In this document: positions 379 to 17,728 of the stretch, in pieces | How the letters are laid out: every line of letters begins with the position of its first letter | How positions within the stretch are numbered: the first letter of the stretch is position 1 | NCBI GenBank assembly: GCA_001778235.1 | Contig: MFGJ01000001.1 | Coordinates: forward strand, 133,302-165,372 | Reading direction: 5' to 3' | DNA: 32,071 nucleotides | Origin: Candidatus Falkowbacteria bacterium RIFOXYC2_FULL_36_12 | GTDB lineage: Bacteria; Patescibacteriota; Patescibacteriia; UBA11705 | The notes under the pieces: generated by a model | Databases searched by the model: none | Seen by the model: only the letters and a program-made list of their open reading frames with translations | What the model was told of the DNA's origin: nothing | Position numbers and translations under genes: made by a program

Positions 379-1425
379 ATGTTCATCACTTTTGAAACAA
401 TTTGGAATTTTTTACGAAATGATTATGTCCAATTGCTAATGATACTACTAGGATCATTGCTCGTAGCAAAGATCATCAAGGAGATAATTGTCAAAGTTTT
501 AAAAAAACTAATGGACAAAACTAAATCAGACCTTGATAACATGATTGTTGATGTAATAAGTAGACCGCTATATCTGACTACTTTGATTGCTGGTCTGCAA
601 ATCGCACTTTATCAACTTTCATATATTGAACAATTTAAATACATTGCTAACCCGATATTTTTCATTATTTATGTATTAATCGGAACATCAATTGTTGCAA
701 AAATATTTACAGCTCTTGTAACAAGATGGTTAAAAGTAAAAAAACAGTTTGATGCCACACCAAATCTAATTTCAAAAATGGCAACTTTTACGATATATAT
801 CATCGCGATATTGATAGTTATGGAGTATTTTCAGGTCGAGATTGGACCACTGATTGCGACGCTTGGAATTGGTGGGCTAGCAATTGGGCTGGCGCTACAA
901 AGTACTTTGGCGAATTTTTTTGCAGGTATACATATAATTTCAGATGAACCAGTAAAAGTCGGAGACTACATTGAAGTGGCTTCTGGCGTTGAAGGAACCG
1001 TGGTTGACATTGGTTGGAGATCAACAAAATTAAAAACTCTGGGCAAAACAATGATAATTATCCCAAATTCAAAGTTGTCTGAATCTATTATAAAAAATTT
1101 ATCAACGGGTGATCATAGTGTAACAGCTAAAGTAGAAGTAGGAGTTGATTATAGGTCAAACCTAAATAAAGTTGAAAAAACAGCTCAAGAAGTTGCAGAT
1201 AAAATCCAAGACAAAACAGCTGGAGCAGTGAAAAAGTTCAAACCAACGGTAAGATTTACCAACTTTGGAGAATCAAACATAAATTTTGTAATTTATATGA
1301 GAGCTGAATCAAGAGAAATGAAAGCAAAGGTTGAACATGCGTGCATAAAAGCACTAAAAAAACGATTTGACGATGAAAAGATTGAAATGTCCTGGCCAAT
1401 AAGAAAAATTTACAATATGCAATAA
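379..1425 (+). CDS. mscS: MscS-family mechanosensitive ion channel
   Basis: 348 aa; N-terminal TM helices and an MscS-like core (IGPLIATLGIGGLAIGLALQSTLANFFAGIHIISDEPVKVGDYIEV). Confidence 0.93.
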   Translation: MFITFETIWNFLRNDYVQLLMILLGSLLVAKIIKEIIVKVLKKLMDKTKSDLDNMIVDVISRPLYLTTLIAGLQIALYQLSYIEQFKYIANPIFFIIYVLIGTSIVAKIFTALVTRWLKVKKQFDATPNLISKMATFTIYIIAILIVMEYFQVEIGPLIATLGIGGLAIGLALQSTLANFFAGIHIISDEPVKVGDYIEVASGVEGTVVDIGWRSTKLKTLGKTMIIIPNSKLSESIIKNLSTGDHSVTAKVEVGVDYRSNLNKVEKTAQEVADKIQDKTAGAVKKFKPTVRFTNFGESNINFVIYMRAESREMKAKVEHACIKALKKRFDDEKIEMSWPIRKIYNMQ

Positions 1426-2820: not shown

Positions 2821-2849
2821 TTGAAAAATTGGCAAATTAATGCTATAAT
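2821..2849 (+). promoter_or_regulatory. Consensus-like promoter upstream of the candidate ncRNA
   Basis: TTGAAA (2821-2826), 17-bp spacer, TATAAT (2844-2849). Confidence 0.7.
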
Positions 2850-2855
2850 ATATGG

Positions 2856-3177
2856 GTAGGATAGGTTAATAACCACTATATCCTATAAAGATGTGAATAC
2901 AAATATTGTTCTTTAGGTTCTTTCCTACATTTCTCCACAAAAGTTGTTTTATCGTTTTCACCATTAGTCAAAACAAAAACAAAAACAAAATTGGCGTGCT
3001 CGTCTGCGGACTTGAGCACAAGAAGCCGATAAACAACGACACTAACACTGACCGAAAAACATATGTCTATACTGTCTCCTCCCCACAGGAGCTGACGGGT
3101 GGACATACCGATAAGGTCAAGGCGGACCAGCCATTAACTAACTGTGTATTACACAAGAGGGCATCGGTCCGCTTTTT
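2856..3177 (+). ncRNA. Candidate structured non-coding RNA, about 320 nt
   Basis: Sits between a consensus promoter and a terminator-like GCGGACC...GGTCCGC-TTTTT (3122-3177). Internal hairpins at 2996-3019 (GTGCTC/GAGCAC), near 3077-3092 (CTCCT/AGGAG) and GTGT-ATT-ACAC. No convincing ORF. Confidence 0.5.
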
Positions 3178-3249
3178 CAATTGTAAACTATTTACAAATC
3201 TGTGTATTTTTTGTATACTGTCACTATACTGATTTACTAAAATAAAATT

Positions 3250-3630
3250 ATGCCTACAAAAATGAATAAAACTGATTTAGAAGAAATAACTCAAATATTA
3301 TTGAATGAGAAAGAACAACTTGAGAAAGAGTTGCAGAAATTTGCTCGTAAAAATCCTGAAAACCCAGAAGACTACCAAACACAGTTTGCTGACCTTGGAG
3401 ATGATGAATCTGACAATGTTTCTGAAGTTGCTCAATATAGTCTAGATATCTCTCTCGAACAAACATTAGAAAAAGCACTAAGAGATGTAAATAAGAGCCT
3501 TGAAAGTATAAAAAAGGGTAACTATGGTAATTGTAAATATTGTAAGCAACCAATTGACCCAAAAAGATTAAAAGCCAGACCAACTTCCAGCTCTTGCGTT
3601 ACCTGCAAAACAAAATTAAAAGCATTGTAA
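3250..3630 (+). CDS. DksA/TraR-family C4 zinc-finger protein
   Basis: 126 aa; C-terminal CKYCKQPIDPKRLKARPTSSSCVTCK, the DksA/TraR zinc finger. Confidence 0.9.
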   Translation: MPTKMNKTDLEEITQILLNEKEQLEKELQKFARKNPENPEDYQTQFADLGDDESDNVSEVAQYSLDISLEQTLEKALRDVNKSLESIKKGNYGNCKYCKQPIDPKRLKARPTSSSCVTCKTKLKAL

Positions 3631-3633
3631 ACC

Positions 3634-4143
3634 ATGACACGGTCTGGAAAATTTATTGTTGCTGGAGTTCTAAGCTCGGTAACACTACTGATTGATAGAA
3701 TTACAAAATATTATGTAATAGACAAACTCCCTGTACCAAATAGGGTTTTTGTATTTAGAAATAATTTTTTTTCGATTGATCTAGGGTTGAGTATAAATAA
3801 CAAGCTAGCTCTTTCAATCCCAATGCCTCAAATAATAATTATTGGACTCATAATAATAATCTTGATTTTAGTTAGCTTACTTCTTTACCGAGAAATATTA
3901 AAAAATAATTGTTGGTATTCGGTAGGCTTTGCCATTATTTTTGGTGCGGCAGTCAGTAATTTGGTTGATAGATTTATTTATAATGGGGTAATTGATTTTG
4001 TACAAATGAATTTTTTTAACATCACTGGAATAATTTTTAATTTAGCAGATGCTTTTATTATTGGAGGAATTTTGATAATATTAATATCAGAGTTTAATAA
4101 TATAAAATTAAAATATGAAAATATACACAATAATAATACTTAG
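3634..4143 (+). CDS. lspA: Signal peptidase II (lipoprotein signal peptidase)
   Basis: 169 aa; four TM segments and catalytic-type motifs VSNLVDRFIYNGVIDFV and FNLADAFIIGG. Confidence 0.9.
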   Translation: MTRSGKFIVAGVLSSVTLLIDRITKYYVIDKLPVPNRVFVFRNNFFSIDLGLSINNKLALSIPMPQIIIIGLIIIILILVSLLLYREILKNNCWYSVGFAIIFGAAVSNLVDRFIYNGVIDFVQMNFFNITGIIFNLADAFIIGGILIILISEFNNIKLKYENIHNNNT

Positions 4144-16846: not shown

Positions 16847-17041
16847 ATGGAAAAATGCGAATGGTGTGGTAAAGAGACCGATAATCTGGACTGGGAGGTC
16901 TTCGGACCTCACTGTAGAGAAGTATACCTGTGCGTGGAGTGTCGCGATCCGGAGAATATGATCGCGGCCGAAATTGCAGAATTCGGAGATTCCGTGATTC
17001 TGCATATGGAAGATTACGACAAGCTCTTCAACGACGAGTAA
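16847..17041 (+). CDS. Small putative zinc-ribbon protein (64 aa)
   Basis: MEKCEWCGKETDN...CVECRDPEN: CxxC...CxxC; promoter and RBS upstream. Confidence 0.6.
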   Translation: MEKCEWCGKETDNLDWEVFGPHCREVYLCVECRDPENMIAAEIAEFGDSVILHMEDYDKLFNDE

Positions 17042-17052
17042 AGGAGGCAGGG

Positions 17053-17541
17053 ATGCCGGTTTCGTACGAATCGTTTTCGGGAGAAATGAAGTTGACCCAG
17101 CCCGAGCTCGGAAGGCTCGGGCTCGAGCCCAACGCCCAAATCATGGCGGGGATGTTCGGTGGTGTGTTCCGCGCAGACTTGTCGGACGCGGCGAAGTCCC
17201 AGACCAGGTACGAAAACGGGCGGTTCGTCAGTGATGGCGATCTGCTCGTCGTCGACATGGCGGACTCGATCCACCTGCCTCTGGGGCTCGAGGCTGACGA
17301 GATGCACATGATCACGGCGGAGGACATGCCGTGGGACGAGACCCCATCCGACCGCAAAGCCAGACTCTTCGGAGACTGGATGTCGGCGGACGAGGTCTAC
17401 AAGCCCGAACACCGGATCGAGCAGGATGTGGCGATGATGCTGGCCAACCCGGAGGTCATCTGGACCGACGGTGTCCAGATCCAGCTTCGCAACCCCGCCC
17501 CCAGCCGAGTGATCAAGCGCTCCCGCCGTTCCCGCCGCTGA
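17053..17541 (+). CDS. Hypothetical GC-rich protein (162 aa) with an Arg-rich C-terminus
   Basis: Perfect AGGAGG RBS (taaAGGAGGcaggATG); MPVSYESFSGEMKLTQPELG...SRVIKRSRRSRR. Start differs from the track ORF (16930). Confidence 0.65.
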   Translation: MPVSYESFSGEMKLTQPELGRLGLEPNAQIMAGMFGGVFRADLSDAAKSQTRYENGRFVSDGDLLVVDMADSIHLPLGLEADEMHMITAEDMPWDETPSDRKARLFGDWMSADEVYKPEHRIEQDVAMMLANPEVIWTDGVQIQLRNPAPSRVIKRSRRSRR

Positions 17542-17593
17542 CCAGCCGACCGACACCTACAAGTCCAAAAAATTCAAACAAGCCAATGCGCAG

Positions 17594-17620
17594 ACTTCAC
17601 TAAACATCAGTGAAGTTTTT
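17594..17620 (+). terminator. Rho-independent terminator of the GC-rich cassette
   Basis: ACTTCACT-aaacatc-AGTGAAGT-TTTT. Confidence 0.8.
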
Positions 17621-17728
17621 GCTTTTAAACAGGGTAAAAAAACAATACAGCCACCATCTAATAATTAGGTGGGGGATTTGTTTTTAGTTAAGTAAAATAT
17701 CCTATACTATTAACAATCCAATAACCTC

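Follow-up and report, generated by a model that had tools for sequence, protein, structure and literature searches.

A pseudoknotted structured RNA gene of the Patescibacteria that probably acts in trans

Upstream of a gene for a TraR/DksA-type zinc-finger protein, the DNA of a Falkowbacteria genome contains some 320 nucleotides that begin with a promoter-like site, end with a terminator-like hairpin and hold no plausible protein in between. The question raised by this locus is whether it is an RNA gene in its own right, a leader of the gene that follows, or a coding region after all, and, if it is an RNA gene, to which kind of RNA it belongs. Falkowbacteria are members of the Parcubacteria group of the Patescibacteria. 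The window, i.e. the whole stretch of DNA analysed here, is 32,071 nucleotides long. The original prediction was that of an independent RNA, specific to its lineage and perhaps 6S-like. The sequence elements on which it was built are all in place: the two promoters, the hairpin GTGCTC-GTC-TGCG-GAC-TT-GAGCAC at 2996-3019, GCGGACC...GGTCCGC-TTTTT at 3122-3177, and the smaller stems CTCC/GGAG (within 3076-3091) and GTGT/ACAC (within 3143-3154).

The RNA gene and its fold

The plus strand of positions 2855-3178 folds with a minimum free energy of -91.5 kcal/mol (z = -5.57), a value that was reached by none of 100 shuffled sequences, as compared to a z-score of -2.02 for the minus strand. The parts of the RNA are collected in Table 1. 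We infer the 5' end of the gene from the position of the promoter and its 3' end from the terminator.

Table 1. Positions of the RNA gene, its parts and its neighbours in the window.
Feature	Position	Strand	Basis or remark
Sigma70 promoter of the RNA, TTGAAA-17-TATAAT	2821-2849	+	11/12; extended -10 TG at 2841-2842
RNA gene	2856-3177	+	about 320 nt; fold z -5.57, R1 match within
P1, 5' hairpin	2856-2886	+	MFE fold; also in G001 and G002, loop letters differ
GUUCUUU, two copies, 5'-domain motif	2908-2923	+	motif enrichment in 5' zone of members
P3, 5' strand GUUGUUUUAUCG	2943-2954	+	core of R1/R2, double-change support
PK, 5' strand UUAGU	2964-2968	+	pairs with 3041-3045
A-rich strand CAAAACAAAAACAAAAACAAAA	2969-2990	+	sole such match in window, 0.01 expected
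P4 hairpin, 2-nt bulge in 3' strand	2996-3019	+	fold
P3, 3' strand CGAUAAACAAC	3027-3037	+	R1 match, P3 covariation
PK, 3' strand ACUAA	3041-3045	+	PK permutation test
P5, long hairpin with internal loops	3049-3119	+	fold
P6, 3' terminator hairpin and U-run	3122-3177	+	GCGGACC/GGUCCGC around GCC..GGGC; fold
Promoter-like site for traR, TTTACA-17-TATACT	3191-3219	+	consensus match only
traR, TraR/DksA-type zinc-finger protein, neighbour outside RNA	3250-3630	+	PF01258
lspA, signal peptidase II, neighbour outside RNA	3634-4143	+	PF01252

The core of the RNA is a 14-bp long-range helix, P3, that encloses an A-rich strand (ACAAAAAYAAAA) and the hairpin P4. BLAST among related genomes gave one clear family member (G002, in two collinear pieces) and otherwise mostly short A-rich fragments, while a second relative, G001, was spotted in the sequence upstream of its traR. 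The three RNAs are strongly diverged in sequence with their helices preserved. The closing pairs of P6 read GCGGACC/GGUCCGC, AGGGCGCU/AGCGUCCU and GGGGCGUCU/AGACGUCCCC in the window RNA and its two relatives, around a common interior of the form GCC...CUAACUGUGUA...GGGC. P5 has a long hairpin with different letters as its counterpart in both relatives, and equivalents of P4 with changed stem letters were found in G001, G002 and a further genome, G004.

When the regions upstream of traR were inspected in 30 genomes, a similar A-rich tract was seen in more than half of them, and a terminator sharing the inner motif often came after it. In the family as finally collected, an AAACAAA-type tract is present in 85 of the 92 members. 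Of the 92, 20 carry the U-rich motif GUUCUUU in their 5' zone, with 0.6 expected from shuffled letters. A second A-rich tract was seen at the loci L044 and L028 and also in the genomes G108, G212, G198 and G150; it precedes P3 in the 5' domain and gives the impression of a duplicated element.

The strong fold is common to the family. Full-length RNAs, scored for half of the members (47), are 308-496 nt long and have a median fold z-score of -7.24, with 46 of the 47 below -3; same-length flanks have a median of -0.39.

Distribution, covariation and the pseudoknot

As an automatic helix search over 18 loci mischose P3 in several cases, the anchors of a first alignment (A1) of 11 cores were placed by eye, and the window's own sequence was left out. 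Both-side changes are found in 10 of the 14 pairs of P3 in A1, and its covariation score was reached by none of 500 shuffles; sliding the two strands against each other, as a control, gave far lower values. The covariance model built from these 11 cores, R1, finds the window locus, which was not part of it, at 2947-3034 on the plus strand with 31.7 bits. The same tendency is seen in an alignment of 92 members which, in contrast to the 11-core alignment, was fitted to the structure: P3 is paired in 93.1% of the cells, double changes occur in 222 cells vs 60.6 +/- 7.7 in shuffles, and the covariation score is 0.573 vs 0.230 +/- 0.010 (0 of 500 shuffles). Within this variable helix one C-G pair is invariant (89 of 89), and the neighbouring U.G is present in 89 of 90.

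R1 matched 94 of the 240 genomes of the class that were searched, the window genome included, with a single match in each except for one genome with two. Under the stricter filters about 60% of the class genomes have no R1 match, so the RNA may not be universal. A second model, R2, was run on 380 genomes from across the phylum and gave 29 matches at E <= 0.001, of which 23 lie outside the class; few candidates were scored per genome, which makes this count a lower bound. Five R2 loci from other classes were inspected, of which four have a promoter with 10-11 of 12 consensus positions and one has traR and lspA downstream. The family thus spans many families of the class and also other classes of the Patescibacteria, i.e. 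it is far more widespread than the term lineage-specific had implied. DNA BLAST against phages gave no match.

The sequence pattern of the P6 loop points to the same family. Within the class it was found only in members, and in GTDB contigs it was found in two Falkowbacteria and twice in unrelated phyla. The exact matches outside the Patescibacteria lie at L049 (Hydrogenothermaceae) and L051 (Paenibacillus), and are probably due to chance, since by our own estimate a scan this large would give about 11 matches by chance.

A second long-range pairing, the pseudoknot PK, is formed between the loop of a small hairpin, P3a, or the segment preceding the A-rich strand, and a segment just 3' of the 3' strand of P3. 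The pairings recognised by eye include UUGGCC/GGCCAA, GUUUCGAC/GUCGAAAC, UACUGGC/GCCAGUA, CCCUAAC/GUUAGGG and ACUGACUA/UAGUCAGU, among others. A first test, in which G-U pairs were allowed and the search space was wide, was uninformative, with the own partner being the best in 2 of 60 cases and 2.9 expected. In a second test, restricted to Watson-Crick pairs and to a narrow zone that had been chosen after viewing the positions in the first, the mean score of own pairs was 14.65 vs 11.71 +/- 0.31 with permuted partners (z = 9.6), and none of 5000 permutations reached it (maximum 12.78). Because the zone was narrowed after the first look, we consider the held-out loci from other classes to be the cleaner confirmation: three of five have a PK with 7-9 Watson-Crick pairs (CCGAUCACA/UGUGAUCGG, CCGAUCAC/GUGAUCGG and UCUAGUC/GACUAGA). 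The PK of the window is short, 5 bp where other members have 5-9 bp, and by itself, i.e. without the relatives, it would not be convincing. The covariation among homologues that the original prediction had proposed to look for is present in both P3 and PK.

The promoter is likewise a matter of the family rather than of the single locus. A scan of this region alone gave 4 promoter-like sites vs 4.5 expected, which is not above chance; the evidence becomes significant only across relatives. Nearly all relatives have a promoter of the type seen here ahead of the core. In 52 of 90 members, the 200 nt that precede the core contain a sigma70 promoter matching at least 11 of 12 positions, vs 6 of 720 shuffles, and the member promoters are uniform in having a 17-nt spacer (77 of 82) and an extended -10 TG (76 of 82). 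Downstream of the core, a terminator-type hairpin is present in 78 of 92 members vs 126 of 736 shuffles, and the GCC..GG(G)C interior of the terminator in 44 of 92 vs 21 of 736. The prediction of an independently transcribed structured RNA gene that carries a promoter and a terminator of its own is supported. That the locus is a genuine structured RNA gene we regard as nearly certain.

Neighbouring genes, known RNAs and other explanations

The neighbourhood of the RNA is conserved in part. traR lies downstream in 63 of 92 members, in 62 of them within 700 nt and usually at a distance of 180-700 nt, and lspA usually comes next; in some genomes lspA directly follows the RNA, and at least 6 further members have lspA within about 700 nt and no detected traR. 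In about a quarter of the members the downstream gene is unrelated, or there is none within 1.4 kb. The genes that follow in unlinked genomes, named from their sequences, include those of a CCA-adding enzyme, SMC, RNase HII, ArsR and a methyltransferase.

This arrangement bears on the explanation that survives best among the alternatives, namely that the RNA is a cis-acting leader (a riboswitch or attenuator) of a traR-lspA operon, in which the folded core would sense a signal and P6 would be a conditional terminator. Promoter, structured RNA, terminator and gene do follow each other in the classical layout, and 62 of 92 members have traR on the same strand 180-700 nt downstream, followed by lspA. 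However, the RNA is not always directly upstream of the gene that it would regulate, given the quarter of members that precede unrelated genes or none. In G002 the RNA is retained together with its upstream neighbour, a different gene follows, and traR is located 1.6 kb away behind another gene, which would be unexpected for a leader and argues for an independent RNA gene. Moreover, P6 forms a strong closed hairpin for which the core offers no evident alternative pairing, the promoter-like site at 3191-3219 would serve traR separately, and the RNA exceeds most leaders in length. We therefore consider a leader to be improbable as the general explanation, although a cis role is possible in the lineages in which the RNA is linked to traR or lspA (about 70% of members). 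The members preceding unrelated genes make the RNA look like an independent, trans-acting one, and action in trans is in our view quite likely.

Some further observations concern the surroundings of the RNA. At locus L031 (genome G045, 683-805, plus strand) the match lies on the opposite strand and beyond traR instead of upstream of it, a further sign that the two are separable. A protein of 398 aa without a Pfam match is encoded at positions 1481-2677 of the window; it has a hydrophobic stretch at its N-terminus, and in several genomes a relative precedes the RNA, also where traR is not adjacent. Elsewhere in the window, an island of 55-63% G+C (16900-17650) lies beside sequence of 25-35% G+C and looks foreign; it contains long overlapping open reading frames on both strands, with no Pfam match.

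A trans-acting RNA might also be a regulatory sRNA whose single strands, A-rich or U-rich (GUUCUUU), pair with mRNAs, and the conserved motifs ACAAAAAYAAAA and GUUCUUU do look unpaired. Yet the strongest conservation is structural, residing in P3 and PK, antisense sRNAs are typically smaller and less folded, and an A-rich strand within a pseudoknot often has a structural part itself, so that we hold this explanation to be unlikely.

A still smaller probability is assigned to the suggestion that the RNA is a divergent 6S RNA, i.e. one that binds RNA polymerase and mimics an open promoter. The two are alike in being single-copy genes with a strong promoter and no protein product, a role in transcription control is conceivable, the neighbour is a DksA/TraR-type transcription factor, and no Rfam 6S RNA was detected in 11 relatives. 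No match to the 6S model (RF00013) was found in the window or at 18 relative loci, even at E-values up to 2-5; this model is insensitive, detecting 5 of 14 controls, and a missing match is therefore weak evidence. The architecture speaks more clearly against it. 6S RNA is a rod with a central bubble and a stem closing its ends, whereas here the 5' and 3' ends are not paired with each other, and the helices are the internal P3 and PK, forming a conserved multibranch core with its A-rich strand, and separate hairpins including the 3' terminal P6. The 6S-like label of the original prediction was thus not upheld.

No other known family fits. The Rfam 15 search that had been proposed was run and gave no family match to the window, either at gathering scores or at permissive E-values. 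The RNA locus does not match RNase P RNA (RF00010), and the genome has its own copies of that RNA (G000 C1:11382-11713) and of tmRNA (RF00023; G000 C7:170999-171388); both RNAs are located elsewhere in 11 of 11 genomes tested. An SRP-like motif (RF00169/RF01854) occurs in no family member, and the exclusion of RNase P RNA, SRP RNA and tmRNA from the first reading of the locus holds. The SRP RNA itself appeared to be absent from the 11 genomes by both Rfam models, with an S-domain motif not above the control level, the M domain of Ffh was found in 0 of 11 genomes vs 14 of 14 controls, and tblastn with E. coli Ffh as the query found neither Ffh nor FtsY in the complete, 1,088,258-bp window genome. 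On these grounds we reject the idea of a disguised SRP RNA. The signal recognition particle as a whole seems to be missing from the window genome and 10 relatives, judging by these searches; it is usually regarded as universal.

Pseudoknotted RNAs and the large structured RNAs of bacteria are further points of comparison. A-rich strands and helix-strand triples in pseudoknots are known from the telomerase RNA core and from the SAM-II and preQ1 riboswitches. The present RNA resembles these in having an A-rich strand inside a pseudoknot, with a stem groove that could accept it; the triples are putative and homology is not claimed. OLE, GOLLD and ROOL (described in PMC12286853) and the raiA-motif RNA, or ModT (PMC11706538), belong to the large structured bacterial ncRNAs whose function is unknown or partly known. 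Our RNA is similar to them in being long, strongly structured and conserved across many species. In contrast to them it was seen only in Patescibacteria, and, judged by the Rfam models, its P3/A-rich core and P6 motif are not shared: none of the four family models (Rfam 15) gave a score for the RNA. No description of the RNA was found in the openly licensed papers searched, and one may exist elsewhere. The family, having no match to any catalogued one, is new, and its broad kind, a structured ncRNA gene, is known.

That the 108-aa reading frame at 2906-3232 (TTG start) is the actual gene is next to impossible even though the frame is open, as it crosses the terminator, the next promoter and the covarying helices, its region shows indels among relatives, and the family has no ORF of matching length (the longest plus-strand ORF has a median of 44 aa and reaches at least 60 aa in 7 of 47 members), in agreement with the initial view that no plausible protein is encoded.

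A possible role in the Patescibacteria

We propose that the locus is a single-copy, Patescibacteria-wide gene for a pseudoknotted RNA that acts in trans as the structured part of a ribonucleoprotein, a reading that we consider probable as a whole. The RNA would be transcribed from its strong, extended -10 sigma70 promoter and end at its own intrinsic terminator. It would fold into a 5' domain with P1 and the U-rich motifs, followed by the pseudoknotted core, P5 and the terminator hairpin P6. In the core, P3 would close around the A-rich strand and P4, with the P3a loop or the segment next to it pairing just 3' of P3, so that the A-rich strand may either be docked along the pseudoknotted helix or be exposed. 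The A-rich strand and the bulged P4 might then bind one or several proteins, giving a regulatory or housekeeping ribonucleoprotein that is possibly tied to transcription control, as is the usual neighbour TraR/DksA. The fold, the distribution, the gene context and the promoter and terminator signals are what the analysis shows. Abundance, stability, constitutive transcription and action in trans are what we infer for this RNA; that it binds protein and is linked to transcription is speculative, and a role as a protein-binding scaffold seems to us to have somewhat less than an even chance.

A more far-reaching version, which we put forward tentatively and rate as possible but rather unlikely, is that the RNA is an ancient one of housekeeping type, which the Patescibacteria (CPR) have passed on vertically since early in the phylum. 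It would form a phylum-specific A-rich-pseudoknot ribonucleoprotein in a core process, for example global transcription control next to TraR/DksA, in cells that lost the signal recognition particle and lack any recognisable 6S RNA.

Beyond rRNA, tRNA, tmRNA, RNase P RNA, SRP RNA and 6S RNA, few structured RNAs are known in bacteria that are both single-copy and widely conserved. If the proposal is true, the core biology of the Patescibacteria would gain one more RNA. The group is very large, its genomes are minimal and most of its members are uncultured; for the few that have been cultured, the RNA would be a concrete target for experiments.
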